Below, piece after piece: positions 11,807-30,430 of a stretch of DNA of 64,000 bases. The notes beneath the pieces are model-generated. The model was not told the DNA's origin. It saw nothing but the letters and a program-made list of their open reading frames with translations, and made no database searches. Origin of the DNA: Allopusillimonas soli. Its GTDB lineage: Bacteria; Pseudomonadota; Gammaproteobacteria; Burkholderiales; Burkholderiaceae_B. How positions within the stretch are numbered: the stretch's first letter is position 1; each line of letters begins with the position of its first letter. The stretch spans positions 186,001 to 250,000 of the forward strand of contig NZ_SDQC01000006.1 of assembly GCF_004153445.1 (NCBI RefSeq), in the 5' to 3' direction. Made by a program: the position numbers and the translations under genes.

Positions 11807-11815
11807 GACACACTC

Positions 11816-15886: not shown

Positions 15887-15891
15887 GCATC

Positions 15892-16386
15892 ATGAGCAAG
15901 GACAAACACGTTTCCGAAACACCCGCCACGCATCTACTTCGCCAGGCCGCAGTCCCCTTCAGCGAGCATCCTTATGAGTATGTGGAACACGGCGGCGCCC
16001 TGGAGGCGGCAAGACAGTTGGGCTTGCATCCGCATCAAGTCGCCAAGACGCTGATCATGGAAGACGAAAATGCGCGGCCGCTCGTAGTCGTCATGCACGG
16101 AGACTGTGAAGTATCCACGAAGAACCTGGCCCGCCAGACAGGCGCCAAGCGCATCAGCCCCTGCTCGCCAGAAACAGCGCAAAAACATTCCGGCTATCAG
16201 GTGGGCGGCACTTCGCCATTCGCCACCCGCAAGCGCATGCCGGTCTGGATTGAAGCCACATTGCTGGATTTTGGCGTCATGTATGTAAATGGCGGACGGC
16301 GTGGTTATTTGATCGGCATAGCACCTTCTGTGGTAATGAAGGTGCTGGGCGCCAAGCCGGTGGAGGCGTCGCTGCCCAAGTCCTAG
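15892..16386 (+). CDS. ybaK: YbaK/EbsC family Cys-tRNA(Pro)/aminoacyl-tRNA deacylase
   Basis: A 164-residue trans-editing domain protein. YbaK-type enzymes hydrolyse Cys-tRNA(Pro) formed by mischarging. Family features are ARQLGLHPHQVAKTLIM, the conserved lysine segment EVSTKNLARQTGAKR, and the GYQVGGTSPFATRK loop. Here the usual GGISP appears as GGTSP. The ATG at 15892 directly follows the xerD stop (5-base gap), so the pair is probably cotranscribed. Substrate assignment is by family only. Confidence 0.9.
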   Translation: MSKDKHVSETPATHLLRQAAVPFSEHPYEYVEHGGALEAARQLGLHPHQVAKTLIMEDENARPLVVVMHGDCEVSTKNLARQTGAKRISPCSPETAQKHSGYQVGGTSPFATRKRMPVWIEATLLDFGVMYVNGGRRGYLIGIAPSVVMKVLGAKPVEASLPKS

Positions 16387-16470
16387 CAACCCGCCCGCCA
16401 GGATATCCAAGCAGCGCGCAGGCCGTCAGACCCTGTTGCCAGCGCGGCGCCGACCCGTCGGGGCACGTCC

Positions 16471-17601
16471 CTACGCGAGCTGGCGCAGCAGCAATGTCCA
16501 AAATGCCAAACGCTGCGGCAAGGTGGAAACCAGTATGTGCTCATGCAAGGTATGCGCGCCGTCACCATCAGCGCCCAGGCCATCCAGCGTGGGCACGCCC
16601 ATAGCGGAAGTGAAATTGGCATCGCTGCCCCCACCCGTCATGGGGGCGTCCTCGAGATCGAAGCCCGCCTCGCGCGCATAGCGCTGGGCCAGTGCCAGCA
16701 AGGCGGTCGATGCTTCGGTTTTTTCCATGGGCGGGCGATTCAGTTCGACATCGATGTCCAGTTCCACGTCGGGATCCACGGCGCACAGATTGCGCATGCG
16801 TCGCAATACCACGTCGGCTGCGCCAAGCGTTGGCACGCGGAAATCCACCACACAGCGGCAATGCGCAGGGACGGTATTGGTAACAGTGCCGCCAGCTATG
16901 GTGCCGACGCTGACGGTAATACCCTGGCCGTAGTCGGTCATGCCCTCCAGCGCCAATACCTGGTGCGCCATTTCACGGATGGCACTGCGTCCTTTTTCGT
17001 GCTGCATGCCGGCATGCGCAGGCCGCCCTTTCACACCCAGGCGCAGCATGCCTGTGCCCTTGCGGGCGGTGACACAGCGGCCACCGCCAGGACGCGCCGG
17101 CTCACACACCAAGGCATACTTGGCATTGCCGGCATATCGTTCGATGGCGGGGCGCGAGGCATGGCTACCTGTCTCCTCGTCCGGCACCATGAGGAAATCC
17201 ACCGGCAGCCGGGTGTCCCCGGCCTGTGAAAGGCCCGCCAGTGCGGTCAGCGCGAGATAGATGCCCGCCTTCATGTCATAGACACCCGGCCCATACAGGC
17301 GATCGCCATCGACGCGACAGGGATTCTCACGCAGCGTGCCAATGGGATGAACCGTGTCCAGATGGCCAAGAATCAAGATGCCGGGCCGCGTGTCCTGATC
17401 TGCCCTGTTGGTAACATGGACCAATGGCCCGGTATCATTGCCTAGCAATGTGACCGTGACCCCAAGCCCCGCCGCACTGGCCTGCTTACGCACCCGCTCC
17501 GCCATCGCGGCTACGCCTTCGGGAGAATGGGAGGGGGATTCGCAGCGTATCCAATCCTGGATGCCAGCGACAAGCTGATCTGTTTCAGTGACGGTGTTCA
17601 T
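16471..17601 (-). CDS. M20 family metallopeptidase, glutamate carboxypeptidase-like
   Basis: A cytoplasmic two-zinc hydrolase of 376 residues, closest in motif to carboxypeptidase G2/ArgE/DapE enzymes. Metal and catalytic residues are visible: H80 and D82 in GHLDTVHP, the bridging D109 in GVYDMKAG, E142/E143 in PDEETGS, and a late GDGAHTLHEHI histidine. GGGSDAN is also typical of the CPG2 group. There is no signal peptide, so it probably cleaves an acylated or peptidyl amino acid inside the cell. It is on the same strand as the aspartoacylase-like gene 133 bases upstream, and the two may act on related N-acyl amino acids. Confidence 0.85.
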   Translation of the reverse strand: MNTVTETDQLVAGIQDWIRCESPSHSPEGVAAMAERVRKQASAAGLGVTVTLLGNDTGPLVHVTNRADQDTRPGILILGHLDTVHPIGTLRENPCRVDGDRLYGPGVYDMKAGIYLALTALAGLSQAGDTRLPVDFLMVPDEETGSHASRPAIERYAGNAKYALVCEPARPGGGRCVTARKGTGMLRLGVKGRPAHAGMQHEKGRSAIREMAHQVLALEGMTDYGQGITVSVGTIAGGTVTNTVPAHCRCVVDFRVPTLGAADVVLRRMRNLCAVDPDVELDIDVELNRPPMEKTEASTALLALAQRYAREAGFDLEDAPMTGGGSDANFTSAMGVPTLDGLGADGDGAHTLHEHILVSTLPQRLAFWTLLLRQLA

Positions 17602-17734
17602 GGCGATCTCGGGTTAAAGATGCCAATGATCTCATGCCATGCGCCAACCCGCCAGCGAGCGGGCCGGGCGGCCGGACAAGTCCGGCTGGCAACTGCCGCG
17701 GCCCAATATGCGCCGGCACACTGCCGCTGGGAAC

Positions 17735-18700
17735 CTACGCAATGGTCTGGGCAAGCCGCAGCACGGTGACACCAGGCCGTATGTTCGCGACTGACGGCAT
17801 GATAAGCACGCAGTTGTCGTAAGGCGCGACCACAGGCTCGCCATCCTCCCATCCTATCAGCGTGCCCGCGGCAAGGCTTTCGAGTCCCTTCCAGTCTCGG
17901 GCGAACCGAAATCGGCCGCTCGGCGAACTGATGGCTTGTGTCACGCGCAAGGCCTGTTGGCGCGAAGCATCCGCAGCAAGCCAGCCCGATGGAACATCGG
18001 CGCGGTCGAGCGTTTCCGCCTCGATGAGAAAACGCGCCATCTGATCCAGGGCTACGTCTCTCGACTCTGGCGCGCCATGGAAGCCGCACTCGATCAGCAA
18101 TGCACGGGTACCATTGTCATCCGGCGCTCCATGTCGGCCATAATCGCGCATGCGCACACCGGCGGCATGGCCGGCATCCGCAATGACGTTGGCCGGATTG
18201 CCGAGCCGAAGAGCAAGGTCTATGTTGCGCTGGTGCATCCCGGTAAGCTGCAATGGCACGTCGGACGTCGACATCGAGTGAAAGTCCATGAGCCAATCCG
18301 CCTGGTCAACCCATGGCCGCAGTTCGGCAGCGCGGCGCCGCTCGCTTGTCGTCGGGTCCGCAAGCTTGTCCGGGCTCCAGACGCGATTGAGATCTTCGTC
18401 AACAAAACGGGAAGGCAGATAATCGCTGGGGTCGAACCGGTCAAAAGCCGCCAGATTGCAGAATGCCAGGGTCAGCGTTCCCCTGCGTGGACACAGCCCG
18501 CTTGCCAAAAACGCTTTGAGCGCCCACGCGCCGCACAGTTCGTTGCCGTGAATCAGTGCGCTCAACATGACTTTGTTGCCAGGCTCACCGGTGTCAAAAT
18601 GCCAGACCCCCGGTGTTCCGGTATTGCCCAGCCGCTCGGCGGAAAGATCCGGACAGGCGAGCGCAAACGGACGCGGTGGTGACACGGCAGCGTGAGTCAT
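17735..18700 (-). CDS. Succinylglutamate desuccinylase/aspartoacylase family protein
   Basis: A zinc-dependent M14-like amidohydrolase of 321 residues. HGNE in SALIHGNELCGAW supplies the first His and Glu zinc ligands, and VDEDLNRVW is the family substrate-binding Asn-Arg. A second His is expected in LMDFHSMST. A C-terminal beta domain with a GTLIGWEDGEPV turn is usual in the AstE/AspA group. True AstE genes lie in an ast operon, which is absent here, so the acyl-amino acid substrate is unknown. It is the first gene on this strand after the tRNA. Confidence 0.85.
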   Translation of the reverse strand: MTHAAVSPPRPFALACPDLSAERLGNTGTPGVWHFDTGEPGNKVMLSALIHGNELCGAWALKAFLASGLCPRRGTLTLAFCNLAAFDRFDPSDYLPSRFVDEDLNRVWSPDKLADPTTSERRRAAELRPWVDQADWLMDFHSMSTSDVPLQLTGMHQRNIDLALRLGNPANVIADAGHAAGVRMRDYGRHGAPDDNGTRALLIECGFHGAPESRDVALDQMARFLIEAETLDRADVPSGWLAADASRQQALRVTQAISSPSGRFRFARDWKGLESLAAGTLIGWEDGEPVVAPYDNCVLIMPSVANIRPGVTVLRLAQTIA

Positions 18701-18726
18701 GAGGCGCTTCCCTTGCTTTTTCTTGG

Positions 18727-18801
18727 TGGCGTCCCCGGCAGGAATCGAACCTGCAATCTTCCCTTAGGAGGGGAAAGTTATATCCATTTAACTACAGGGA
18801 C
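18727..18801 (-). tRNA. tRNA-Arg (anticodon CCT)
   Basis: On the minus strand the sequence folds into a full cloverleaf. The acceptor arm is GTCCCTG paired with CGGGGAC, with discriminator G and an encoded CCA. The anticodon stem TTCCC/GGGAA encloses the loop CTCCTAA, giving anticodon CCT (reads AGG). The T arm contains GGTTCGATTCC. No variable-arm insertion is present. The gene lies 26 bases upstream of the aspartoacylase-like gene and borders the accessory block on its other side. Confidence 0.97.
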
Positions 18802-19053
18802 AACGGGTTTTCATGGAGTATAACGTAAGCCGCATGTACACTAGCTTTAGCTAGGAATGACGCGGCTTTCTTATGACAACCTTCACTCAAGTGGGCAAAA
18901 AATGGCGTGCCCAAATCGCGCCGCGCCATACCCTGCAATCAGCGTTGCTTCCTGCATGTTTACCGCCTGCGAAACGATACCCATGCGCCATGTAACAGCA
19001 GCCTTGGGGGCAATTCCCGGCTCTTTCATTGTGGGGACTATTGTTTTAATGTC

Positions 19054-20826
19054 TTAAACAATCGATTCTTGATCTGTCTTCCCACCCGACTCCACCTGCA
19101 GCGTACTGATCGATCTATGCTCATCGTGAGACTCACAACGCAGGAAGTCAAAATCACACCCTTGGTCAGCCTGCAGTACATGTTTCTGATACAACCATGC
19201 ATAGCCGCGAAGAGACATTGGCTCCTTGCTTTCAAAATTGGCCATACGCCTGGCCATTTCAACTGCATCGACGAGAAGATCAATGCGTTGGCGCGATACC
19301 GACAGGCGAATACGATCACCATTTTGCACAAAAGCCAGGGGGCCACCTATCGCTGCCTCAGGGGTGACATGCAGTACAACAGTGCCATAAGCAGTGCCGC
19401 TCATACGCGCATCTGATATCCGCACCATATCTCGCACACCAGCGTGAGCCAACTTGGAAGGGATCGGAATATATCCCGCTTCTGGCATCGCTGATGCTTT
19501 TGGTCCAGCGTTGCGCAGAACAAGAATGTCATCCGCATTAACGTCCAAATCAGGTGAATCCAACCTATCAGCCATATCTTCAAGCGTGTCGAAAACAACC
19601 GCACGTCCTTCATGTTCGAACAGCCGCTCGTCGGCCGCCGCCACCTTGATGAGTGCCCCCTGTGGAGCCAGGCTTCCGTATAGTGCGCGAAGACCGCCTC
19701 CTTCGTAAACAGGATCAGCGCGCCGACGAACTACATTCGTATCTGACCATAGTTGCGCATCGTCAAGCTCTTCGCCTAGTTTGCGCCCCGTGACAGTCAA
19801 ACAGTCTAAATGCAGCAGGTCACGAATCTCTCTCATTACGGCCGGCAGCCCGCCTGCCGCGTTGAGATCCTCCATGTAATGGGTTCCTGTGGGCTTAAGG
19901 TTAACCAGTACGGGGGTGTCCTTGGATAGTTTGTTCAACAGATCAAGGCTCACTGTAATACCTAATCGTCCAGCTATTGCTGTTAAATGAATAAGGGCAT
20001 TTGTCGACCCTCCCACAGCAAGTAGAACCCGCAGTGCGTTCTCGACCGACTTCTGCGTAACAATCCGATCAGGTGTGACATTCTGCCGCGCCAACCAGAC
20101 TGCCTGCCGACCTGTGGCTTCGGCTGCCCTCAACCTATCTGCATGAACCGCCGGGATAGTGGCGCTACGGGGCAACATCATGCCAATGGCTTCGGCAATG
20201 CAGGCCATGGTGCTTGCAGTTCCCATTACCGCACAGGTGCCTGCCGTTGTAGCCAGTTGGCCTTCGATCTCCTCAATCTGCTCCGATGAGATATCGCCGC
20301 CACGAAAGTTTGACCAATGCCGCCGACAATCAGTGCATGCTCCAAGCCGCTCCCCCATATATCGGCCAGTCATCATCGGACCACCCACAAGTTGAATGGC
20401 GGGGCGCCCTGCCGACAAGGCACCCATCAATTGGGCAGGAACGGTTTTGTCACACCCTCCCACTAGCACCACACCGTCCATGGGCTGTGCCCGCACCATT
20501 TCCTCGACGTCCATTGACATCAAGTTCCGGAACATCATGCTGGTCGGATAGATAAACGGCTCTCCAAGCGATACCGTTGGGAATGTGATCGGAAGAGCAC
20601 CCGCCGCCAGTACGCCACGCTTGACCGCTTCGATCAGCTCAGGAAAATGCCTGTGGCAATTATTGAAACCACTCCGCGAGTCAGCAATACCAATAATTGG
20701 CCGATCCAGCTCATCCCCTGAATACCCCATCGATCGCGCAAAAGATCGACGCAGATACCGTGAGAACTCAATGTCACCGTAATGCGTCAAGCCCCGATAT
20801 AGGCCCCGCTGCTTATTGTCAAGCAT
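19054..20826 (-). CDS. IlvD/Edd family dehydratase, pentonate-dehydratase subgroup
   Basis: A 590-residue iron-sulfur dehydratase. These enzymes remove water from 2,3-dihydroxy acids to give 2-oxo acids. The three cluster cysteines are C57 (FNNCHRHF), C125 (GGCDKT) and C198 (AGTCAVMGTAST). This spacing and the MGTAST sequence point to the [2Fe-2S] L-arabinonate/D-xylonate dehydratase branch rather than IlvD proper. The start at 20826 gives MLDNKQRG, 4 bases after the upstream dehydrogenase stop; an earlier ATG would lie inside that gene. It is the last gene of the dioxygenase operon. Its sugar-acid or other diol-acid substrate is unknown. Confidence 0.88.
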   Translation of the reverse strand: MLDNKQRGLYRGLTHYGDIEFSRYLRRSFARSMGYSGDELDRPIIGIADSRSGFNNCHRHFPELIEAVKRGVLAAGALPITFPTVSLGEPFIYPTSMMFRNLMSMDVEEMVRAQPMDGVVLVGGCDKTVPAQLMGALSAGRPAIQLVGGPMMTGRYMGERLGACTDCRRHWSNFRGGDISSEQIEEIEGQLATTAGTCAVMGTASTMACIAEAIGMMLPRSATIPAVHADRLRAAEATGRQAVWLARQNVTPDRIVTQKSVENALRVLLAVGGSTNALIHLTAIAGRLGITVSLDLLNKLSKDTPVLVNLKPTGTHYMEDLNAAGGLPAVMREIRDLLHLDCLTVTGRKLGEELDDAQLWSDTNVVRRRADPVYEGGGLRALYGSLAPQGALIKVAAADERLFEHEGRAVVFDTLEDMADRLDSPDLDVNADDILVLRNAGPKASAMPEAGYIPIPSKLAHAGVRDMVRISDARMSGTAYGTVVLHVTPEAAIGGPLAFVQNGDRIRLSVSRQRIDLLVDAVEMARRMANFESKEPMSLRGYAWLYQKHVLQADQGCDFDFLRCESHDEHRSISTLQVESGGKTDQESIV

Positions 20827-20830
20827 TCGA

Positions 20831-21817
20831 CTACTCCGCCTTAGATCCCCATACCTGAGGATTGACCATTGCTTCGGGCTGTTTGTTAGTGAGGGCATCG
20901 ATCAGATTGCGAGTAGCAAGGTCTATCATTGCGCGACGCGTTTCTACAGTCCCGCTGCCCACATGGGCTTGCAACACCACGTTACGCATGCTGCAAAGCG
21001 GGCTTTCCGCAGGCAGTGGCTCTTTTACCATCACATCCAAGCCAGCCCCAGCAATTTCGCCAGATTTCAATGCCTCAACCAAAGCCTGCTCGTCAACTAC
21101 CGCCCCCCGCGACGTATTAATGAGGTAGGCTGACGACTTCATTATCTTAAGCTCACGCTCGCCGATGCTATTGCGAGTGGCATCCGTCAAGGGAACATGA
21201 ATGCTCAAAAAATCCGCCTCTGCCAAGAGCGCCTCACGATCGCGATACTCGGCTAAGCCCTCGCTTTCGGCGTCTGAACAGCGATTTCGATTGTGGTAGA
21301 TCACGTTCATATCGAAGGCTTTCGCAGTTTTTGCTACGACTCGCCCTATGCGACCCATGCCAAGCAAACCCAGTGTTTTTCCGCGAATGTCACGAGTAAG
21401 TGCTGGCGCCCCCTTGCTTGCCCAGGTTCCATCACGCACATAGGTGTCTCCATTGAGCATATCGCGGCCAAGGATAATAATCATTCCAAAAACGAGATCA
21501 GCAACAGCAGAGTCTAATACCCTAGGCGTATTGCAAACAAGAATGTTACGAGCATTAGCAGCGGCCACGTCCACATTATCGAACCCCACCGCAAAGTTCG
21601 AAATTACGCGCAACTTAGGCATAGAGGCCATGACCCCTTCGTCAAGTTTCGTTCGTACAGTGCACACTATGCCGGCTATTTCCTGCAGTCGGTCCGAGTC
21701 AAGGGCATCTTCCAGGCGCTTTCCGACCGGCACATCCACGATATTGAAGTTCGCTTCAATACTGGTACGTAGATCCTCAGGCACAGGCGCAGAAACAATG
21801 ACATAGGGGTGGGACAT
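20831..21817 (-). CDS. D-isomer-specific 2-hydroxyacid dehydrogenase
   Basis: An NAD(P)-dependent oxidoreductase of 328 residues interconverting 2-oxo and D-2-hydroxy acids, of the GhrB/hydroxypyruvate reductase type. The Rossmann fingerprint is GLLGMGRIGRVVAKTAKAF. Catalytic Arg (INTSRGAVVDE), Glu (GLDVMVKEPLP) and His (LQAHVGSGT) are all present. It sits in the middle of the dioxygenase operon, 39 bases after the small 69-residue gene and 4 bases before the dehydratase. The pairing with a dihydroxyacid dehydratase suggests it reduces or oxidises the same pathway's 2-oxo acid. The true substrate is not known. Confidence 0.9.
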   Translation of the reverse strand: MSHPYVIVSAPVPEDLRTSIEANFNIVDVPVGKRLEDALDSDRLQEIAGIVCTVRTKLDEGVMASMPKLRVISNFAVGFDNVDVAAANARNILVCNTPRVLDSAVADLVFGMIIILGRDMLNGDTYVRDGTWASKGAPALTRDIRGKTLGLLGMGRIGRVVAKTAKAFDMNVIYHNRNRCSDAESEGLAEYRDREALLAEADFLSIHVPLTDATRNSIGERELKIMKSSAYLINTSRGAVVDEQALVEALKSGEIAGAGLDVMVKEPLPAESPLCSMRNVVLQAHVGSGTVETRRAMIDLATRNLIDALTNKQPEAMVNPQVWGSKAE

Positions 21818-21856
21818 GAAATCCTCCTTATTGATATGGGTTGATATGGGTGTGCT

Positions 21857-22066
21857 CTATTGCACTAGCCCTTCGATATCAGTGGCGAAAATAGGCTGCT
21901 CATTCGAGCTGACAAGTTCAGGGTTATTCGGGTGCTCCAGATAACGTCCAATTATCCAGGCCCCATCCTGGGGATTCTCAGTCACCTCAACGATGGCACC
22001 ATCTGCTAGCTTCACTCGTACTCCAGGCACCAGCTCGTTGAGATTTATTGTCTTAGAATCAGGCAT
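21857..22066 (-). CDS. Small conserved-looking protein of unknown function in the dioxygenase operon
   Basis: A 69-residue acidic protein (MPDSKTINLNELVPGVRVKL at the start) that I do not recognise. Alternating hydrophobic residues in VRVKLADGAIVEVTENPQ and GAWIIGRYLEH suggest a small beta-barrel, SH3- or KOW-like. It has no cysteines, no signal peptide and no membrane segment. The start at 22066 is set by AGGAG 6 bases upstream; an in-frame ATG 18 bases earlier has no such site. It lies 28 bases after the ferredoxin gene and 39 before the dehydrogenase, so it is an operon member and may assist the oxygenase or its redox chain. Confidence 0.7.
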   Translation of the reverse strand: MPDSKTINLNELVPGVRVKLADGAIVEVTENPQDGAWIIGRYLEHPNNPELVSSNEQPIFATDIEGLVQ

Positions 22067-22094
22067 GATGTTCTCCTGTGCCATACATAATGCG

Positions 22095-22421
22095 TCACAA
22101 CATAAGTTGTTCTACCGGTATACGTACACTCATACCAGCCAGCGAATCAGTCATGATTATTTGACAGGAAAGGCGACTAGTAGGCGACGGATCTGGCACG
22201 ATCTGAAGCAGCGCTGATTCCGACATATCGGGAGCAGCGATTGCGCTGAAATGCTCTGGGTCGACATGCACATGACAGGTGCCGCATATCGCCCCGCCGC
22301 CGCACTCGGCAACAATACCTTCGATACCCTCCCGTCTGGCCGCCTCCATCAGAGACCAGCCTACTGGGACATCAATAGGTTGCTCAGTACCGTCGGGCAG
22401 CACAAATTTCACTATGGGCAT
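22095..22421 (-). CDS. [2Fe-2S] ferredoxin, putidaredoxin type
   Basis: A 108-residue electron carrier. Cluster cysteines are in AECGGGAICGTCHVHV (spacing C-x5-C-x2-C) and a fourth in RLSCQIIM, the adrenodoxin/putidaredoxin pattern rather than the Rieske type. It would pass electrons from the neighbouring flavoprotein reductase to the dioxygenase alpha subunit. Its ATG shares one base with the stop codon of the reductase gene (TAATG), so the two are translationally coupled. The length is normal for the family. Confidence 0.93.
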   Translation of the reverse strand: MPIVKFVLPDGTEQPIDVPVGWSLMEAARREGIEGIVAECGGGAICGTCHVHVDPEHFSAIAAPDMSESALLQIVPDPSPTSRLSCQIIMTDSLAGMSVRIPVEQLML

Positions 22422-23644
22422 TATTGGGATTCCTCCTCTGGAGAAATAGTGACGGGGGCGGCGACATCGGCCGGCATACCGATCCGCTTGATGTTCTTAA
22501 CAAACTCTATGGGACTGTCCACTGCCTCAACCACGGCCAAAGTGCCGCCCTGGTAACGTTCCACAATCCATCCGTTCCGTGTGACAAGAATGTTTTCTTC
22601 GCATGGCACTCCGGGCCGAATTAAACCCGCAACCTGTAGCCGTCTGCCATGCTGCTCCGACCAGAACGTGCAAGGACGATGTGCCGGTAATGGTTTTCTC
22701 GCAATCACCGTAGCAACAATGCGAGCTTGCTCCAGCGCATTCTGAACACTCTCCACGCGAACATGCGCATTAAGGATGGAGCGATAGCGGCTCGCACAAT
22801 CGCCAATTGCATAAACATTGCGTGAAGAGGTGCGGCAGATCTCATCCACCACAATGCCGTTATTGCAGGCAAGGCCGGCCAACTCAGCCAACCTAGTATT
22901 GGGCGCCGCCCCAACGGAAGCTAACAAAACATCCGCTTCAAGCCATTGCCCGCAATCGAGCTCAACACGCCACGAACTCTCTTCATACGCACATTGACGA
23001 ACGGCGCTACCGTGGATCAAAGTGATGCCTGCTTCCCTATGCATCCGCTCAAACTCGCGCGAGGTGTGGGCAGAAACACGACCGGCCATTAATGTAGTCG
23101 CTTGCTCCAACACCGTCACACGAGCGCCCAAACCTATTGCCGTAGACGCCACCTCCAAACCTAAATAGCCCCCGCCGACAACCAGCAAGTGCTTACCAGC
23201 CGCTAACTTGCTCCTTAGACGCAATGCATCATCCGCTGTACGAATCATGTGCAAACCTGGATTATCCAGGCTTGGCAACTCCCGCGCGCTCGCACCCAAA
23301 GCCAATACGCATTGCCGGAAATTGATTCTGCGCCCCAAGTCGGTAATCAATTGACGAGTGTCTGTATCGACTCGCGTAACGCGCTCCCCTCTTAGGAAAG
23401 TTATCTTTTGCTTCTCATAGTTGTCCGCAGCCTTCAGTTCAATACGATCAAATGTGGTTTGGCCTGCAAGGAATGCTTTGGATAGCGGCGGCCGTTGATA
23501 GGGTATGCGAGACTCCTCTCCCAGCAGAATAATGCTCTCCTCATAGCCCGCAGCACGTAGAGCAAAAGCGCATTCGACGCCGGCATGGCCTGCACCGACA
23601 ATGACTGTGTCTGCTTTGATCGATTCATTTTGTATGCCGACCAA
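22421..23644 (-). CDS. FAD-dependent ferredoxin reductase (BphA4/PdR type)
   Basis: An NAD(P)H-dependent flavoprotein that reduces the partner ferredoxin. The FAD-binding fingerprint is ADTVIVGAGHAGVECAFALR, RIPYQRPPLSKAFLAG is characteristic of this reductase family, and the NAD-binding fold is LLVVGGGYLGLEVASTAIGL. NVYAIGDCAS is the second FAD motif. I place the start at a TTG at 23644 because GGGAGG stands 5 bases before it. In-frame ATGs at 23659, 23674, 23695 and 23719 lack a good ribosome site, though any could be used; the product is about 407 to 432 residues. It shares TAATG with the ferredoxin gene. Confidence 0.9.
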   Translation of the reverse strand: MVGIQNESIKADTVIVGAGHAGVECAFALRAAGYEESIILLGEESRIPYQRPPLSKAFLAGQTTFDRIELKAADNYEKQKITFLRGERVTRVDTDTRQLITDLGRRINFRQCVLALGASARELPSLDNPGLHMIRTADDALRLRSKLAAGKHLLVVGGGYLGLEVASTAIGLGARVTVLEQATTLMAGRVSAHTSREFERMHREAGITLIHGSAVRQCAYEESSWRVELDCGQWLEADVLLASVGAAPNTRLAELAGLACNNGIVVDEICRTSSRNVYAIGDCASRYRSILNAHVRVESVQNALEQARIVATVIARKPLPAHRPCTFWSEQHGRRLQVAGLIRPGVPCEENILVTRNGWIVERYQGGTLAVVEAVDSPIEFVKNIKRIGMPADVAAPVTISPEEESQ

Positions 23645-23759
23645 CCTATCCTCCCACATGTATCCTGGTGTCATGGCTACTACATACTTATGCATGCCCG
23701 CATTGACGCAAATGCACACTACACAAGCATCCTTGCGGCGCTTCTCACGCCACAGGTAA

Positions 23760-24314
23760 TCAAAAGAACGTTGTCAACGCTTTAGACAACAGCACATTCT
23801 GATCTAAAAAAATTTCACGGGTGAGAATCTTCCAATCACCGCCAACGCCCAGCAAGGTGTCCAACCGTTTTCCCACAAACAGGCTTTCCTCATCCTGGAG
23901 GCGGTTCTGATACACAAGAAAGCGCGACCGCACTTTTACCTGCTTCCCCCCTTCCGCCCCTTCTCTCAAATCAAGCACACGTATATTGGATACCAAATGA
24001 GAGACACGTGATGCTGGCTCCTCGGCCCAATGAATTCCCGTCCCAATCTGAGCCACGCGTTGGCGTAATGTATTGATACCCTCATCAAACCAGGCAGCCT
24101 CGCCTTTGGCCGAATACTCCTGATCCATCGCATCGCGGCGGACATTGCGCGCAAGAGGCATACGGTACTGAATGTCCTCGTGTAGCAACTCCAGCCACTT
24201 GTCGAAACGGCGTTCGTCCAACAGGTCGGCCTCCCGAAAATAGAATTGCTGGATATCCCACCAAAGCTCGATTGAGCTAGACTGAGCCGACTGTTGCACA
24301 TCGGATTCCATCAT
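23760..24314 (-). CDS. Aromatic-ring-hydroxylating dioxygenase, beta subunit
   Basis: The small structural subunit of a three-component Rieske dioxygenase, about 184 residues with the cystatin/NTF2-like fold of the family. Supporting sequence: ELWWDIQQFYFREADLLDER near the N-terminus, then WLELLHEDIQYRMPL, and the C-terminal segment LLGVGGDWKILTREIFLDQN. The start at 24314 is chosen because GGAGG lies 5 bases upstream; the next codon is also ATG, and a longer frame reaches into gntR. It follows gntR on the same strand. Its alpha partner is transcribed divergently from 25393, an uncommon separation. Confidence 0.9.
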   Translation of the reverse strand: MMESDVQQSAQSSSIELWWDIQQFYFREADLLDERRFDKWLELLHEDIQYRMPLARNVRRDAMDQEYSAKGEAAWFDEGINTLRQRVAQIGTGIHWAEEPASRVSHLVSNIRVLDLREGAEGGKQVKVRSRFLVYQNRLQDEESLFVGKRLDTLLGVGGDWKILTREIFLDQNVLLSKALTTFF

Positions 24315-24379
24315 TTCATCCTCCCCAGTTGCGTGGCATTTCACGCAAATTCCACCCGCTCGCCGCTTGTTTTGTTTGA

Positions 24380-25132
24380 TCAAGAGTCACGCTTCACGCC
24401 ATTTGGCATACGGTCAAGCAAGCGCGACACTGTATTCTCAATATGGTTGCGAGCCAGTTGCCGAGCCAATTCCGGGTCGCCTCGTTCAATGGCGTCAAAA
24501 AGCAACTGATGCTCACGCTGAGCATCCGTACCACGACGAGCATTCGCCGAACGCGTACGGGATACTTCCAAGTTACGCACCAGTAACTGACTAAGGAAGC
24601 TGAAGAACTCAATGTAGTGTTCGTTCCGGGTCGCCTCCGCAACTGCCCGATGGAATCGCATATCAGCCTCAACACCGGCCACCACATTGTCAGTTTCAAT
24701 TGCATCAGCCATGTCCACTAACGCACCGCGCATGGCATCAATATCAGAATCAGTTCGGCGCAACGCTGCCAAAGAGGCGGCCTCGATCTCAAACCCCCTA
24801 CGAAGCTCCACAATACTAATGATCTGCTCGATATCGCCGTCTTCCGCAGCATGCATACGCAACACGGAAGGGCGAGCCACCGCCGTAATAGCGAGGCCCC
24901 GCCCTTGTTTGCTTTCCACAAGGCCATCAGCCTTCAAGCGCGACACGGCTTCGCGCAGGGCCGTACGCGAAACGCCCAACCGTTCGGCGATTACCTGCTC
25001 AGGAGGCAAAATTTCGCCAAGACGATATTGCCCGCTAGTAATTTCATTGATCAGAATTTCAGTAATTCGATCCGTTAGGCTGACGGGCTCGGATCGCCGA
25101 TCCGACTCTGGACGACGTTTAAGAAGGGCCAT
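24380..25132 (-). CDS. GntR family transcriptional regulator, FCD (FadR-type) subgroup
   Basis: A 250-residue regulator. The N-terminal winged helix is clear (YRLGEILPPEQVIAERLGVS, then RTALREAVSRLKADGLVE). The C-terminal all-helical FCD domain would bind an organic acid, with conserved D/H positions in VEADMRFHRAVAEAT. It is the first gene of the minus-strand dioxygenase operon and is divergent from the alpha-subunit gene, so it probably controls both from the intergenic region. The inducer is likely a carboxylic acid substrate or intermediate of this pathway. Confidence 0.92.
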   Translation of the reverse strand: MALLKRRPESDRRSEPVSLTDRITEILINEITSGQYRLGEILPPEQVIAERLGVSRTALREAVSRLKADGLVESKQGRGLAITAVARPSVLRMHAAEDGDIEQIISIVELRRGFEIEAASLAALRRTDSDIDAMRGALVDMADAIETDNVVAGVEADMRFHRAVAEATRNEHYIEFFSFLSQLLVRNLEVSRTRSANARRGTDAQREHQLLFDAIERGDPELARQLARNHIENTVSRLLDRMPNGVKRDS

Positions 25133-25160
25133 GTTTCAACACTCCAATTACTCGTGTTTA

Positions 25161-25173
25161 TAATATTATATTA
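25161..25173. promoter_or_regulatory. Possible GntR operator in the gntR/dioxygenase intergenic region
   Basis: A 13-base inverted repeat with perfect 6-base arms TAATAT and ATATTA lies 28 bases upstream of gntR in the 260-base divergent promoter region. FCD regulators usually bind short palindromes near their own start, so this is a candidate operator. A TATAAT-like sequence overlaps it. The surrounding DNA is very A+T rich, so chance symmetry is possible. I see no second good copy near the alpha-subunit gene. Confidence 0.35.
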
Positions 25174-25392
25174 CTAATGGAATTTTTGGAAGATAGAAAG
25201 GGAAAATACCTCAATAAAGCACGTAATTTGTATGGAATAAGCTTCGTATCTATTGCAGTTATTTTTGTAAATCATTGATATTAAACTAAAAATTAAATTT
25301 ATTTCGACTGCTAGCTTCAATAGCTCAATTCTCTTGATCTTATTAGTGTGATTATACTACAATCAAAGAAATCATTGAAAATGAGGATAGCC

Positions 25393-26772
25393 ATGGAGCC
25401 AGTAGAGCAGCTCGTTCGAGCCGATGAGGGCTTGGTTAAGCGTGCCATCTTCTCAGACGAAGAAATTTTTCGAGAGGAAATCAATCGAATCTTTTCACGC
25501 GCTTGGTTGTTCGTCGGCCATGAAAGCTTGATACCCAATCCAGACGACTACTTCGTATCACGCATGGGGAGTGACTCGGTCATCCTTACACGCAATCGGC
25601 AGGGTGAAATTCAGGTACTACTTAACAGCTGTACTCACCGCGGCATGAAACTGTGCCGCTATGATCAAGGTAACAACCGAACTTTCACCTGCCCATATCA
25701 TGGCTGGAGCTTTTCCACTGATGGCAATCTGGTCGAGCGTCCAGGAGAACTGGTAGGCGTGCCAGGTCATGCCAGCCACTACAAGGGAGATTTGGATAAA
25801 AAACAATGGGGCCTGAAACGGGTAGCACACGTACATAATTACAAGGGGGCGATATTTGCAACCTGGGACGCAGGCGCCCCTGCATTTGAAGATTATCTCG
25901 GAGATATGCGCTACTACCTGGATTCTGCGCTGGATCACCGCGATGGTAGTCCTGGCGGATCTATTGTTATAGGCGGCGTACAAAAATGGCGTGTTGGCAG
26001 CAACTGGAAGATGCCAGCGGAGAACTTTATCGGCGATCTATATCACGACATTAGCCACCGATCAGTGGATATCGTCGGGATAGGGCCAAGCGGCGGGCGA
26101 GGCAGACGAGATGCCATGAAGGGCCGAGTTGCGATCGCTTTTCCTGCACTGGGACATGGCCTACTGGGAAACCTGCCTCATTACGAAGAGCCCGAGTACC
26201 AGGCGAACTACGCAGCCGATCCAGAAATTGAAAAATACTATCGAGATGTACATCAGGCTCGCATAAGAAACCTCGGAAATCAGATGCGCGTTCGGCACCG
26301 CGTTGGCACCATCTTTCCAAACATGTCTTTTCATGGTTGGCAACCACGCACCATTACTGTGTATCACCCCATCAGTCCCTCTGAAATGGAAATGTGGCGC
26401 ATGTATTTGGTGGACGCAGACGCACCAGCAGGAGTCAAAGAGGCAGCGAGACACTATTTTCTTCGCTATTCCGGTCCGGGAGGCATGACTGAGTCCGATG
26501 ACATGGAAAACTGGACCGGCGCCACCGAGGCCAGTCGAGGCAGCATTGCTCGAGAAATGTATTTTAACTATCAAATGGGTATCGGCCACTGTAAGCCCGT
26601 CCCCGAACTACGTGGCGCGGTTGTCAGTAATGAATTCACCGAAGAAAATGCGCGCGCGTACTACCGTCGCTGGGGGCAATTCATGTCTGGAAAATCGTGG
26701 GACGAATTAATGCCCACATATGAGATCAAAGACGAAGCCTGTCTTCCCCTCACGGGCAGCCAGCTACCGTAG
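25393..26772 (+). CDS. Aromatic-ring-hydroxylating dioxygenase, alpha subunit (Rieske)
   Basis: The catalytic subunit, 459 residues. The Rieske [2Fe-2S] ligands are C80, H82, C100 and H103 (SCTHRGMKLC and TFTCPYHGW). The mononuclear iron site is in NWKMPAENFIGDLYHDISHR, with H218 and H222 and the bridging D215; the third ligand is probably in SDDMENW. This is the standard family layout. The start at 25393 is taken because GAGG lies 6 bases upstream; a longer frame has ATGs at 25381 and 25348. It is divergent from the operon holding its beta subunit, ferredoxin and reductase, and is followed by a Bug binding protein. The substrate is unknown. Confidence 0.92.
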   Translation: MEPVEQLVRADEGLVKRAIFSDEEIFREEINRIFSRAWLFVGHESLIPNPDDYFVSRMGSDSVILTRNRQGEIQVLLNSCTHRGMKLCRYDQGNNRTFTCPYHGWSFSTDGNLVERPGELVGVPGHASHYKGDLDKKQWGLKRVAHVHNYKGAIFATWDAGAPAFEDYLGDMRYYLDSALDHRDGSPGGSIVIGGVQKWRVGSNWKMPAENFIGDLYHDISHRSVDIVGIGPSGGRGRRDAMKGRVAIAFPALGHGLLGNLPHYEEPEYQANYAADPEIEKYYRDVHQARIRNLGNQMRVRHRVGTIFPNMSFHGWQPRTITVYHPISPSEMEMWRMYLVDADAPAGVKEAARHYFLRYSGPGGMTESDDMENWTGATEASRGSIAREMYFNYQMGIGHCKPVPELRGAVVSNEFTEENARAYYRRWGQFMSGKSWDELMPTYEIKDEACLPLTGSQLP

Positions 26773-26915
26773 CATCGTCGACCGTACCATACGCCGTGCT
26801 GAGAGCACAGAGACAATTTCAATAGGCTGCCAAGTTCTGGCCATTACCTAGGCCTTTGCTTTGAAGCCATATAACGCAGCTCAAACAGGCTTCACAAACC
26901 AAAAGGAGACACTCA

Positions 26916-27908
26916 ATGGAACGCCGTTCGCTTCTCAAGCTGTTGGCCGCTGGCGCCGTATGTGTGCCATACAATCGCCTTATGGCGAAGGGCCAAGACT
27001 ACCCCACCCACACAATTCATATGCTGGTAGGCTCAACACCAGGTAGCGCAACCGATCTGGCTTCACGTCTAGCTGCTGAAATTTTGCAGAATAAATATGA
27101 GCAGACTGTTGTTGTCGAGAATAAACCAGGTGCAGGCGGCGTTATTTGCATGATTGACGTTGCCAAAGCCGCCCCAGATGGTTACACATTGCAGTTGGGG
27201 GGCCTTGGACACAATGTTATTCCTCCGGTCACGCGCACTGGCTTGCCCATTGATATACCAAATCAGATCATGGCCATTGCACAAGCAGCGGAGTTTGTAA
27301 ATGTGCTTGTGGTACGTAAAAATCACCCAGCAAACAACCTGCAAGAGTTCATCGACTATCAAAAAAATAGAAAGAAACGCGTACTGTACGGCAGCAACGG
27401 CATTGGAAGCTCATCCCATATGACTAGTGAGCTCTTCGGCATTCGTACTGGCTTGAATTTAGAACACGTTCCCTACAAGGCCGCCAGCGATGCGCTGATA
27501 GGTACAGCCAACGGAGATCTTGACTTGCTATTTATGAACATGCCGCCTACTTTACCCATTATTCAGACAGGGCAACTTAAAGCGCTTGCTGTAACCAGTA
27601 GTTATCGCGCACGGCAGCTTCCGGATGTTCCAACAATGCAGGAGCAAGGTATGAGCGACTTCGACGTGACGAGCTGGTTGGGCGTATATGCACCCGCAGG
27701 CTTGGCACCCGAGATAGTACAGAATCTGTCGGACACTCTGGTCGAGGGGTTTGGCTCTCAAAAATACAAGCAAAAGTTCATCAATGCTGGATTTGAACCA
27801 AAAGTACGCAATGCTAAAGAGTTTGCCGAGTTTAACCAAGCAGAACTGAAGCGCTGGGGGGATGTAGCGAAGAAGGCGGGTGTAAGCCTTCCCTATGGCA
27901 AGGCCTAA
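26916..27908 (+). CDS. Bug family (TctC-like) periplasmic substrate-binding protein
   Basis: A 330-residue solute receptor of the tripartite tricarboxylate transporter class. The leader MERRSLLKLLAAGAVCV looks Tat-like. Family motifs are MLVGSTPGSATDLASRLAAE, ENKPGAGGVICMIDVAKA, HVPYKAASDALIGTANGDLD and YAPAGLAPEIVQNL. AGGAG stands 7 bases before the ATG. It lies 143 bases after the dioxygenase alpha gene on the same strand, so it may capture that pathway's substrate. No TctA/TctB membrane genes are in the window, which is usual for orphan Bug proteins. Its A+T-rich codon use matches the accessory block. Confidence 0.92.
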   Translation: MERRSLLKLLAAGAVCVPYNRLMAKGQDYPTHTIHMLVGSTPGSATDLASRLAAEILQNKYEQTVVVENKPGAGGVICMIDVAKAAPDGYTLQLGGLGHNVIPPVTRTGLPIDIPNQIMAIAQAAEFVNVLVVRKNHPANNLQEFIDYQKNRKKRVLYGSNGIGSSSHMTSELFGIRTGLNLEHVPYKAASDALIGTANGDLDLLFMNMPPTLPIIQTGQLKALAVTSSYRARQLPDVPTMQEQGMSDFDVTSWLGVYAPAGLAPEIVQNLSDTLVEGFGSQKYKQKFINAGFEPKVRNAKEFAEFNQAELKRWGDVAKKAGVSLPYGKA

Positions 27909-27942
27909 ATATTTCGTTAGCTCATCCTCACACCAAAAACCT

Positions 27943-28545
27943 TTACAGCCCAGCACCATCATCCTTCAGCAAATCCTGAAACTCTCCATCGGAAGGTGAT
28001 CGTTGCAAGGCTTCTATGGGCATTTCTCCATGGCTAAATCCTAGAGCCTTCTTGATTGCATGGCTCATAGTTTCGACGTATTCATGTGGCATGCCTGCTG
28101 GGTACAGTATGCCCAGCAGGCTCCGACCACAAATCCTGGCACGCCAGATTCATTAGTAACGGAGACGTCGGGGCGCAACGCGGCTAGTTATGGCATGGCC
28201 AAGCGCAAAAACGTACCGTTGCCGGCTGAAGAAAATTGAACTCACCCGGATACGCCTTGGCATATGCAATAGAGCCCTCAAAATCATCGAAAGAAGCTCG
28301 CGGGCTTGCAAGCATAATAAGCAGCAGATCGCACAAAAACCCATCGACTCGAAATCTTTAAGTTTGCCGTGGTCGAAAGCATCATGCACGAAGTAGAGAA
28401 AGCTTCGGCTTATAGAAATGTAAATATCGCTATAGTCTATTGCTATCGCCCCCTTGTGCGTGAGACCGGGCGTCGTGTTCTCCGCAACCATGTGCATCAT
28501 CGACAAGGCGGGCGAAGCGGCTATGGCTATGAAGGAAATGCCGCT
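27943..28545 (-). pseudogene. Decayed Bug (TctC-like) binding-protein gene
   Basis: No intact gene fits this stretch, but minus-strand fragments in three frames follow the Bug family in order. ISFIAIAASPALSMMHMVAE (near 28540-28480) resembles the N-terminal ligand loop. EGSIAYAKAYPGEFNF is next, then SAGNGTFLRLAMP (from 28229). An in-frame stop and a jump of about 100 residues lead to LAALRPDVSVTNESGVPGF, then a frameshift and PAGMPHEYVETMSHAIKKAL, ending KDDGAGL and TAA at 27943. The total is about 600 bases against about 980 for an intact gene. The fragments are read by eye, so the limits are approximate. Confidence 0.7.
28093..28121. repeat. Hairpin-forming inverted repeat inside the Bug pseudogene
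   Basis: GCCTGCTGGG and CCCAGCAGGC form a perfect 10-base stem with a 9-base loop. It coincides with the point where the decayed Bug reading frame shifts between GVPGFVVGACW and PAGMPHEYV, so it may mark the mutation that disrupted the gene. It has no U-tract on either strand, so it is not a typical terminator. Confidence 0.6.
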
Positions 28546-28743
28546 GGCTTTGTGAGTTCGGCGGCAAATCATATTCATTGAAACAATGAACAAGTATCTC
28601 TTGTTCAATGCGCCTATAGTAGCGCTAGGTGAGCTCAAAAATCCTACAAAGGGCTCGCGAGGAGGTTACAGCCTTTGCGCTCAGAACCCACGAAGTTACT
28701 CCACGCTGAAATACGAAAAAAGAACACGAAGGAGAAGCAAACC

Positions 28744-30279
28744 ATGAGAACCCCACTGCTTTCATTGCTGTGCCTGTCTGCCATCGCCTACGCTGCACCG
28801 GGCGTCGCCGAAACACCGCGGGACGAATTCTTCTGGCTGGGGGAGATGAATAAAGCGACACTGGTCATCAACACCGACGAAGGCCTTATCGAAAAATCCA
28901 TGGCCCCGGGTTTTGCCGCAGGCATAGAAAAAGTCATCGAGGATGGAAACAAGGAAGGAGGCAAGCGTCCATCCACCGTGATTACTTTCGAACCCCTGAT
29001 GATCAAGGCCGCGGGCTCCGAAATCACGCTGCTGCATGCGGGACGCTCGAGTCAGGACATGCACGCAACCTACCGCGCCGCCATTCTGCGCGACGGCTTG
29101 CTCGACCTCGCCCAGCAACTGCAGGACACATCGACGACACTCGTGAATCTGGCCGAGAAGAACGCAGCCACCATTGTTCCCAACTACACCAATGGCGTTG
29201 CCGCGCAACCCAATAGCTATGGCCACTACCTTCTGGGTCATGCCGCAGGCCTGCGGCGCGACGCGCAGCGCATTCGGGAAGCTTATGCGCGTGTCGATCG
29301 ATCGGCCATGGGCACCACCGTACTGAACGGCACCAGCTGGCCGCTGAATCGGGAAAGAATGGCCCACTATCTCGGATTTCCGCGCATTGTGGACAATGCA
29401 TACGACGCCGCGCAGATATCGTCAATGGAGCACCCTGTGGAAGCAGGTGCCATCGTGATGAGCATTGCCTTGCATACTGGCCACTTCATCGAGGATCTGC
29501 TCACTCAGTATGCCCAGCCCAGGCCATGGATACTACTGCAGGAAGGCGGCGACAACACCTATGTTTCCAGTGCCATGCCCCAGAAGCGCAATCCTGGCCT
29601 GCTGAACAGGACGCGCAGCAGCGCATCCACCGCGCTGACGCTGGCATTGGGACCCGCCATTCAGGCCCACAACATCACACCGGGGATGCCGGACCCAAAA
29701 AGTGCCAAGGCCAACAGCGCAATGGTTGCCAGCGCAATCAAAGCCTTGAAAAACTGGGATGATGTCATGAAGGCTTTGGTCGTCAGCCCCGACCGCGCGC
29801 TGGAAGAGCTGAACAGCGATTGGACCGCCTCGCAGGAATTGGCCGATTCGCTCATGCGCAATCATGGGCTGCCGTTTCGCATCGGCCACCATTTTGCATC
29901 CGAGGTCGTCAGCTACGCCAAAAAGAACAACATCAAGCCGCTGGACTTTCCCTACGCGCAGGCGCAGCGCATCTATGCAGAAACCGTGCACGGAAGTGCG
30001 TATCCGCAAACTCTGCCCATGACGGAGGAAGGTTTCAAGGCAGCGCTGGATCCCGTGTCGATTGTGAACCATCGTGCAACGACGGGCGGCCCGCAGCCGG
30101 CGGAAATGAAACGCATGATTGCCGATGCGAGAAAAGACCTTGCCGAACAGCAGACATGGATCGATGCGCGGCATGGCTACATCGATGCAGCATTGAAGCA
30201 GTTGGACGCCGATTTCCAGAAATTGCTGGATGCGAGCAACAACTCGTCGCAGGAGAACAAGCCGACAGATGCGGCCTGA
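28744..30279 (+). CDS. Exported argininosuccinate lyase/fumarase superfamily protein
   Basis: A 511-residue lyase with a Sec signal peptide (MRTPLLSLLCLSAIAYAAPG, cut near AYA or GVA), so it should act in the periplasm. Superfamily motifs are HAGRSSQDMHATYRA, GTSWPLNRERMAHYLGF and the signature loop SSAMPQKRNPGLLNRTR near residue 275. Such enzymes split fumarate or a related acid from a substrate by beta-elimination. The start at 28744 is fixed by AAGGAG upstream and the signal peptide; a TTG at 28675 also has a ribosome site but would bury the signal. It lies between Bug genes and before an AEC permease. Secretion is atypical for this superfamily, and the reaction is unknown. Confidence 0.8.
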   Translation: MRTPLLSLLCLSAIAYAAPGVAETPRDEFFWLGEMNKATLVINTDEGLIEKSMAPGFAAGIEKVIEDGNKEGGKRPSTVITFEPLMIKAAGSEITLLHAGRSSQDMHATYRAAILRDGLLDLAQQLQDTSTTLVNLAEKNAATIVPNYTNGVAAQPNSYGHYLLGHAAGLRRDAQRIREAYARVDRSAMGTTVLNGTSWPLNRERMAHYLGFPRIVDNAYDAAQISSMEHPVEAGAIVMSIALHTGHFIEDLLTQYAQPRPWILLQEGGDNTYVSSAMPQKRNPGLLNRTRSSASTALTLALGPAIQAHNITPGMPDPKSAKANSAMVASAIKALKNWDDVMKALVVSPDRALEELNSDWTASQELADSLMRNHGLPFRIGHHFASEVVSYAKKNNIKPLDFPYAQAQRIYAETVHGSAYPQTLPMTEEGFKAALDPVSIVNHRATTGGPQPAEMKRMIADARKDLAEQQTWIDARHGYIDAALKQLDADFQKLLDASNNSSQENKPTDAA

Positions 30280-30342
30280 CACTCAACGTTCTGGCACGCC
30301 TGCGCGCGAGGCGCAGCGCGCCAAATAAATGGCGAGGCTCCA

Positions 30343-30396: not shown

Positions 30397-30430
30397 CTGC
30401 TGCTGAAGCGGCCTGGACACAGCGCAATGC

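Follow-up and report, generated by a model that had tools for sequence, protein, structure and literature searches.

A recurrent Rieske dioxygenase, 2-hydroxyacid dehydrogenase and IlvD-type dehydratase gene set in Allopusillimonas soli, with a possible role in small ring carboxylic acid breakdown

What compound would call for both a ring-hydroxylating Rieske dioxygenase and enzymes of the kind used on sugar acids? The question is raised by an operon of Allopusillimonas soli, at positions 19054-26772 of a 64,000-nucleotide stretch of contig NZ_SDQC01000006.1 (the whole stretch is called the window here), in which the genes of a dioxygenase stand with those of an IlvD/EDD-family dehydratase (IlvD) and a D-2-hydroxyacid dehydrogenase (HADH). 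Judged by their neighbourhoods across genomes, the Rieske-HADH-IlvD genes are a recurrent functional unit. We favour, tentatively and at somewhat less than even weight, the reading that the operon degrades a small ring carboxylic acid: a five-membered heteroaromatic 2-carboxylate would be converted to alpha-ketoglutarate semialdehyde (KGSA) and then 2-oxoglutarate, with 2-furoate or 2,5-furandicarboxylate (FDCA) the best chemical fit.

Seven genes run on the minus strand, 5' to 3' from the regulator to IlvD, with the dioxygenase alpha subunit (alpha) divergent from them and all frames open:

19054-20826, minus strand: IlvD/EDD-family [2Fe-2S] sugar-acid-type dehydratase, 590 amino acids from ATG 20826
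20831-21817, minus strand: HADH, glyoxylate reductase/GhrB-like, both 2-Hacid_dh Pfam domains above cut-off
21857-22066, minus strand: conserved small protein of 69 amino acids with a predicted small beta-rich fold
22095-22421, minus strand: [2Fe-2S] ferredoxin, Fer2 type (PF00111, 43 bits)
22421-23719, minus strand: ferredoxin-NAD reductase, HcaD-like (NF042949, 288 bits, below the cut-off of 450)
23760-24383, minus strand: Rieske dioxygenase beta subunit (PRK10069 subfamily, 189 bits, above the cut-off of 145; PF00866)
24380-25132, minus strand: FadR/GntR-family regulator with FCD domain (PF00392 and PF07729 above cut-off)
25393-26772, plus strand: Rieske dioxygenase alpha subunit (PF00355 and PF00848; GTG 25348 an alternative start)

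An earlier reading of the letters without database searches (the sequence-only reading) had named IlvD, HADH, a divergent alpha, and beta, reductase and ferredoxin in one operon, and all of these are present and open. It had not named the open reading frame (ORF) of the 69-amino-acid protein, and the gaps of 4 to 40 bases that it gave hold if that ORF is counted as a gene and not otherwise. The gaps are 4 bases between HADH and IlvD, 39 between the small ORF and HADH, 28 between ferredoxin and small ORF, at least 40 between beta and reductase, and about 65 between regulator and beta, while reductase and ferredoxin overlap by 1 base. The IlvD start at ATG 20826 lies 4 bases past HADH, which an alternative start at 20898 would overlap; beta likely starts at ATG 24314 or 24311, with TTG 24383 possible, and the start of the reductase is uncertain (GTG 23719 or ATG 23695, 23674 or 23659).

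With beta, ferredoxin and reductase, alpha completes a full three-component set. It carries the Rieske Cys2His2 motif, the 2-His-1-Asp iron site and the bridging Asp, and the residues concerned (C80/H82, C100/H103, D215, H218, H222 and D370) are invariant in 29 aligned alphas. Its closest solved structures are HcaE (8k0a, 310 bits) and biphenyl dioxygenase (2yfi, 301 bits), and it scores 349 bits against the NCBIfam equivalog for HcaE (3-phenylpropionate/cinnamate dioxygenase), where the cut-off is 830. The window shares the alpha, beta and reductase families and the Rieske and iron-ligand motifs with HcaEFCD-type 3-phenylpropionate/cinnamate dioxygenases (Hca) and biphenyl dioxygenases (Bph). 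It differs from them in its Fer2-type ferredoxin (that of Hca and Bph is of Rieske type), in the H-x3-H spacing of the iron-ligand histidines, in polar residues at aligned pocket positions, and in its extra small protein, HADH and IlvD. The spacing, at residues 218-222, is shorter than in aligned HcaE and biphenyl dioxygenase. A further difference from Hca and Bph, already claimed by the sequence-only reading, is that no cis-dihydrodiol dehydrogenase or ring-cleavage dioxygenase was found among 20 scanned window genes (10 at 19054-31420 and 10 further), a search that took in neither the remaining genes of the window nor the genome outside it.

Alignment to 2yfi places H314, S360, T366 and R223 of the window's alpha at Leu333, Phe378, Phe384 and Leu240, which we take to be pocket positions of biphenyl dioxygenase, so that polar residues stand where that enzyme has hydrophobic ones. 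H314, R319, S360 and T366 occur in 21 of 21 close alpha rows and R223 in 20 of the 21. Among eight more distant rows H314, R223 and S360 are each kept in five, and T366 is kept in all eight and is therefore not special to the close clade. As aligned, these polar positions would suit a small charged substrate.

IlvD belongs to the NCBIfam PRK06131 subfamily (821 bits against a cut-off of 539, scanned with the longer 614-amino-acid start) and scores 690 bits, below the cut-off of 882, against the L-arabinonate dehydratase equivalog; it matches the solved structures 8ej0 (532 bits) and 9evv, an arabinonate dehydratase (506 bits), and keeps three cluster Cys motifs. HADH has both Pfam domains and the catalytic Arg/Glu/His motifs of the D-2-hydroxyacid dehydrogenase family (250 bits against PDB 5aov). 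It shares domains and motifs with the GhrB/glyoxylate reductase family, and differs in lying well below the equivalog cut-offs (glyoxylate reductase PRK13243, 311 bits against 455; GhrB, 284 against 492) and in being tied to a Rieske operon. Plasmid relatives of HADH were set aside as a guide to function, identity reaching 42-43% at most among the best 12 of 205 matching records; the one whose context was inspected (Terrarubrum, 42%) lies by LeuCD-like genes with no Rieske gene.

Co-occurrence of the genes in other genomes

Among 150 related genomes, with the window's own as G000, relatives of HADH at E <= 1e-75 occur in nine, eight of them at 58-100% identity and one at 45%. Seven of the eight with at least 58% identity coincide exactly with the seven genomes in which alpha is intact and at least 70% identical (G000, G061, G018, G009, G079, G075 and G046). 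The exceptions are G071, a fragmentary genome whose HADH lies on a 5-kb contig and which is outside the alpha genomes, and G082, which has alpha only as two partial copies and no HADH match. IlvD relatives at E <= 1e-120 occur in 66 of the 150; besides the window's own, only those of G061, G046 and G075 reach 73% identity, and each adjoins HADH. The sequence-only reading had held that dehydratase and dehydrogenase found in relatives without the dioxygenase, and with a promoter of their own, would count against it. Such a separation is widespread for same-family IlvDs at about 58-71% identity, whereas IlvDs of at least 73% turned up in alpha genomes alone, and HADH orthologues once outside them (G071).

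For a wider view we scanned a GTDB species set with an alignment of alpha. This gave 68 loci, of which 37 with at least 59% identity and the mapped window make up a set of 38; duplicate loci L021-L027 were left out of it, and partner genes were counted within about 10 kb. Beta is found in all 38, a TctC-type gene in 32, HADH in 28 (27 of at least 250 amino acids), a ferredoxin match in 22, a window-like reductase in 20, and IlvD in nine, two of these cut by the end of the stretch. Other recurrent partners are aldehyde dehydrogenases (ALDHs) resembling KGSA dehydrogenase (eight loci) or succinate-semialdehyde dehydrogenase (three), a thiamine pyrophosphate (TPP) enzyme and a GabT-like aminotransferase (seven each), and UbiD (three).

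Here too HADH follows the close alphas almost one to one, and the counts point to more than chance. Where alpha identity is at least 70%, HADH occurs in 21 of 23 loci, the exceptions being a contig end (L058) and a broken alpha (L073, Bordetella genomosp. 2, also L027, where alpha is represented by no more than two partial, C-terminal copies that face opposite ways); where it is below 70%, HADH occurs in 7 of 15, so that the link weakens with distance. Pairwise identities of alpha and HADH over 27 loci (leaving out L073, which lacks a full alpha, and loci without an HADH of 250 amino acids) correlate at r 0.85 (0.62 when restricted to the 287 pairs below 85%), the pairs not being independent. 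An ALDH of one type or the other is present in seven of the nine IlvD loci and missing from the window and L059. HADH and IlvD stand side by side in the window and in L042, L054, L059, L067, L150, L151 and L186, and a Pigmentiphaga genome holds alpha, beta, TctC, a small ORF, GabT, the TPP enzyme, a KGSA-dehydrogenase-like ALDH, a regulator, HADH and IlvD in one stretch. In Azospirillum rugosum (L064) three alphas of the clade (66-69%) lie in about 10 kb, at about 1416-2777, 6901-8262 and 9980-11326.

The partnership of alpha, HADH and IlvD spans Beta- and Alphaproteobacteria and Actinomycetota. Among 301 genomes searched around that of the Nocardia with L067, alpha at E <= 1e-120 was found in 5, that Nocardia included. 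Two of the other four (G206 and G253) have alpha with IlvD, UbiD, an ALDH and a reductase, and of these two HADH was called only for G206, UbiX only for G253; in the remaining two the context is different, and the dehydrogenase looks, by eye, to be of the 3-hydroxyisobutyrate type. A dehydrogenase of similar appearance stands just before alpha in four Chloroflexi loci (L077, L084, L087 and L105; alpha 51-54%), and at about 3-7 kb upstream these loci also encode a dehydratase of the IlvD/EDD family, a distant one (32%).

The IlvDs have more than one source. A tree of 37 rows groups the six betaproteobacterial Rieske-linked IlvDs in a single clade (100/98). The larger clade to which this belongs also takes in those of Nocardia and Mycolicibacterium, which stand among nine IlvDs that have no Rieske neighbour; that of Chelativorans lies outside it. 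A single origin of all nine Rieske-linked IlvDs was rejected (approximately unbiased test, p 1.8e-7, with two long branches, L164 and L076, in the tree), and on this phylogeny IlvD joined alpha and HADH at least twice. HADH likewise comes from two subfamilies (35-39% identity between, 66-74% within), as do the ALDHs of the loci. That the same functions were brought together more than once argues for one pathway. The sequence-only reading had proposed such a pathway, and it gains support from the tracking of close alphas by HADH, the repeated recruitment of IlvD and the recurrence of the partners in another phylum.

A possible route for five-membered heteroaromatic acids

If the genes form one pathway, its order is probably oxygenate, open, reduce, dehydrate. 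In the first step the Rieske system would add both oxygen atoms across C2 and C3 of the ring, C2 being the carbon that bears the carboxylate. The hemiketal product would then open without an enzyme to 3-hydroxy-2,5-dioxopentanoate (from FDCA, 3-hydroxy-2,5-dioxoadipate), and HADH would reduce the 2-oxo group to give 2,3-dihydroxy-5-oxopentanoate (from FDCA, 5-dehydro-4-deoxyglucarate). IlvD would dehydrate this 2,3-dihydroxy acid to 2,5-dioxopentanoate, which is KGSA; in the FDCA branch KdgD would make KGSA with loss of CO2, and a KGSA dehydrogenase would yield 2-oxoglutarate. Neither a ring-cleaving dioxygenase nor coenzyme A (CoA) would be needed, and pyrrole- or thiophene-2-carboxylate would lead to that open-chain compound as well, ammonia or sulfide being lost. 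We infer every one of these steps, what was observed being gene content, intact motifs and recurrent independent association.

The fit to furan acids comes from reasoning backwards. IlvD enzymes require a 2,3-dihydroxy acid, and the known substrate of KdgD is 5-dehydro-4-deoxyglucarate, the very intermediate proposed from FDCA. Should both enzymes deliver KGSA, IlvD would have to act on 2,3-dihydroxy-5-oxopentanoate and KdgD on 2,3-dihydroxy-5-oxohexanedioate. The compounds before the reduction would then be 3-hydroxy-2,5-dioxopentanoate and 3-hydroxy-2,5-dioxoadipate, the ring-opened forms of 2,3-dioxygenated 2-furoate and FDCA. HADH is the type of enzyme expected for such a reduction of a 2-oxo group, since 2-hydroxyacid dehydrogenases act on 2-oxo and 2-hydroxy acids. 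Stated for the whole class, we consider it possible, slightly more tentatively than for the operon itself, that there is an O2-dependent, CoA-free route for five-membered heteroaromatic carboxylic acids, in which ipso-dioxygenation by a Rieske enzyme opens the ring and HADH with IlvD (for mono-acids) or KdgD (for diacids) leads to KGSA.

Several partner genes are consistent with this route. The ALDHs of L042, L063 and L061 have the alpha-ketoglutaric semialdehyde dehydrogenase model as their best match (506-529 bits, all below the cut-off of 770) and 2,5-dioxovalerate dehydrogenase as their second, likewise below cut-off; elsewhere in the window's genome (L148) a 62% relative matches best the model for 2,5-dioxovalerate dehydrogenase (512 bits, below the cut-off of 750). 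A Rhodococcus plasmid operon (L038, record NZ_CP054208.1, alpha 53%) holds HADH, a KdgD-like gene that falls in the PRK03620 subfamily (321 bits against a cut-off of 278), and two ALDHs. UbiD and UbiX genes are found in the Nocardia, Mycolicibacterium and G253 operons, and the best PDB match of the Nocardia UbiD is 6H6V (304 bits, the next different protein scoring 166), which is HmfF (PMC8988006). Toluene dioxygenase is the same general kind of enzyme as the dioxygenase of the window. It dihydroxylates the thiophene ring, and ring diols that can be isolated are known from thiophenes but from neither furan nor pyrrole (PMC8777831).

Furoate breakdown as described runs via furoyl-CoA and the furoyl-CoA oxidase HmfABC (PMC12064950); a molybdopterin-type cluster was also seen. 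This Hmf pathway (hmfFG, hmfABCDE; Cupriavidus, Pseudomonas and Paraburkholderia) has in common with the proposed route its substrates, the end product 2-oxoglutarate, and the HmfF-like UbiD with UbiX of the Nocardia and Mycolicibacterium operons; the window's operon, in contrast, has no CoA ligase or molybdenum enzyme, and its attack would be O2-dependent and of Rieske type. To Weimberg-type routes for pentonates and D-glucarate (IlvD or KdgD, then KGSA dehydrogenase) the proposed route is linked by the dehydratase and the KGSA-dehydrogenase-like gene, and it differs from them in entry by a dioxygenase and HADH, with no sugar dehydrogenase or lactonase among the 20 scanned window genes. The sequence-only reading knew of no described pathway with this combination, and our full-text literature search agrees: among the matches listed, with subscription papers mostly not covered, no paper joins a Rieske enzyme with furoate breakdown, and none links IlvD and a 2-hydroxyacid dehydrogenase to a ring-hydroxylating dioxygenase. 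Also in favour of furan, the classical marker HmfE was not found above 37% identity in the Nocardia, Mycolicibacterium, Chelativorans, Rhodoferax metagenome-assembled or window genomes, matches in the last being 35% at most. A classical-looking hmf cluster was seen in L176 (5552-16217, presumably Bordetella sp. LUAb4), with UbiD, UbiX and an HmfE-like gene, and molybdenum-hydroxylase and ligase genes by eye.

Weighing the route against its rivals

A number of observations weigh against the heteroaromatic route, some of them on the gene set and others on furan as the ring. Of the 38 loci, 29 are without a local IlvD, 27 without either ALDH type and 10 without HADH (8 of these with alpha at 59-67%), and the TPP-enzyme and GabT genes are left unexplained. 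The KGSA dehydrogenase candidate of the window's genome lies outside the operon, and the ALDHs of Nocardia and Mycolicibacterium score as succinate-semialdehyde dehydrogenases. In Rhodococcus the KdgD-like protein falls below the TIGR03249 equivalog cut-off (276 bits against 374), and neither ALDH scores as KGSA dehydrogenase, one being best as betaine-aldehyde dehydrogenase and the other having no NCBIfam model at 1e-60.

As to furan, the UbiDs of Nocardia and Mycolicibacterium (L067 and L076) have Q and N at the positions of PtHmfF H296 and R304, presumably FDCA-binding residues, where five HmfF-type sequences keep H and R; these two differences rule out the UbiDs as proof of FDCA. For the UbiD of Chelativorans a different UbiD, 7pda, is the better match (257 bits, against 187 for HmfF), and at E <= 1e-40 no HmfF-like UbiD was found in the genome of the window. 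When 20 genomes, 16 of them alpha-bearing (including G082 with its broken alpha), were searched for HmfE, it was found at 79-100% identity in 6 of the 16 (G061, G079, G046, G075, G154 and G155), so that furoate has another route there, and these six include Parapusillimonas, whose full operon is the most similar to the window's. The pocket positions, moreover, are placed through sequence alignment and an assumed numbering. Furan is at most the first among equals, since pyrrole- and thiophene-2-carboxylate fit the same logic.

The rival that survives best, though we think it unlikely, is a carbocyclic route, in which the Rieske system would form the cis-dihydrodiol of a benzene-ring acid, HADH would serve as an unusual dihydrodiol dehydrogenase, ring cleavage would be encoded elsewhere, and IlvD would act on a later or side product. 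The closeness of alpha to phenylpropionate and biphenyl dioxygenases speaks for it, as do several distant relatives (alpha about 50-54%) in which a short-chain or 3-hydroxyisobutyrate-type dehydrogenase beside alpha replaces HADH (partly judged by eye), as if in a slot for a diol dehydrogenase. Such a role would, however, be at odds with the 2-oxo and 2-hydroxy acids on which enzymes like HADH act, and it leaves the recurrent IlvD, KdgD and KGSA-dehydrogenase-like partners unexplained; nor was a ring-cleavage gene noticed near the close loci, which were read by eye from the first residues of the genes listed and not properly searched.

The order given by the sequence-only reading fares worse, and we consider it quite improbable. 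In this rival an open-chain or side-chain unsaturated acid would receive two hydroxyl groups at the double bond beside its carboxylate, IlvD would turn the product into a 2-oxo acid and HADH would reduce it, which would answer the need of IlvD for a 2,3-dihydroxy acid and suit the adjacency of HADH and IlvD in the window and seven other loci. Against it, 19 of the 28 HADH loci are without a local IlvD, so HADH need not depend on the product of IlvD, and the solved enzymes nearest to alpha take their names from ring substrates or from ring-bearing phenylpropionate and cinnamate. Dioxygenation, ring opening, reduction and then dehydration is the likelier order because HADH is common (28 of 38 loci), IlvD is optional (9 of 38) and a KGSA-dehydrogenase-like gene accompanies IlvD in relatives; of the earlier oxygenase-dehydratase-dehydrogenase interpretation, then, the general idea of one pathway stands and the order probably does not. 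Just as improbable is the alternative that the same reading had named, a separate sugar-acid module of HADH and IlvD that happens to sit behind a dioxygenase operon: it can point to IlvDs of 60-71% identity without a nearby alpha, three of them (L152, L155 and L161) beside or near a dihydrodipicolinate synthase-family gene as in sugar-acid clusters, and is disfavoured by the near one-to-one occurrence of HADH with close alphas, the repeated independent recruitment of IlvD and the Nocardia-family operons that hold the same genes.

If true, the heteroaromatic route would join Rieske-type aromatic oxidation to Weimberg-type sugar-acid catabolism by simple chemistry. Bacteria would then have a second route for furan acids, among them the bioplastic monomer FDCA, or a route for pyrrole or thiophene acids, and a role would be assigned to a dioxygenase clade that occurs in Proteobacteria and Actinomycetota and has more distant relatives among the Chloroflexi. 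Even with the ring wrong, the recurrent Rieske-HADH-IlvD set would define a pathway, and the conserved small protein would be a component to explain.

The small protein, regulatory sequences and genomic setting

The 69-amino-acid protein has no Pfam match. It is matched in 22 of the 38 close loci at more than 55 bits (25 at more than 35 bits) and also in Chloroflexi, Variovorax and Rhodococcus relatives, and 26 aligned rows share G15, N31, D34, G35 and W37. Its AlphaFold model (pLDDT 82, pTM 0.65) has five strands, and a fold search with this model gave weak, generic SH3/KOW-like barrels (best E 0.034), none at E <= 0.001. From its place near the oxygenase genes it is perhaps an unrecognised oxygenase-associated component of this Rieske clade; a role in oxygenase assembly or electron transfer would be a guess.

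Two further features lie on the plus strand, one on either side of alpha:

25334-25363, plus strand: promoter-like TTGATC-18-TACAAT 5' of alpha, overlapping GTGATTATACTA, a variant of the putative regulator site of relatives
26916-27908, plus strand: TctC (Bug) periplasmic carboxylate-binding protein, the recurrent neighbour (PF03401, 221 bits)

Promoter-like matches across the region are not above chance (7 found, 9.7 expected), and neither terminator nor promoter scans gave more matches than shuffled sequence. In relatives the palindrome TACGATTATCGTA is a candidate regulator site: it occurs exactly 5' of the FCD regulator in 6 loci (e.g. L046 9074, L048 9083 and L053 9086) and with one mismatch in 5 further loci, 4 near the FCD regulator and 1 upstream of alpha, and a two-mismatch copy lies upstream of the TctC/Bug gene at L046 16909. 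The window has no copy within two mismatches 5' of alpha, and a weaker variant stands there at about 25350-25361. Known FadR-type operator patterns were also tried upstream of the operon and gave 1 match in 13 upstream regions, this different shared sequence being found instead.

The operon reads as an acquired island. Its G+C content is 52.1% over 19054-26772, against 62.9% at 1-19000 and 61.8% at 31500-64000, several of the scanned flanking genes are housekeeping (mutL-, purM-, pcnB- and glyS-like), and alpha at E <= 1e-40 was found in none of four same-genus genomes. The island-like composition extends over a wider 19054-31420, at 52-55% against flanks of 62-63%. Within that span, 28675-30279 encodes an argininosuccinate-lyase-family protein (argH model, 180 bits, below the cut-off of 279.5) whose N-terminus looks by eye like a secretion signal; a periplasmic location would be unusual for the family.

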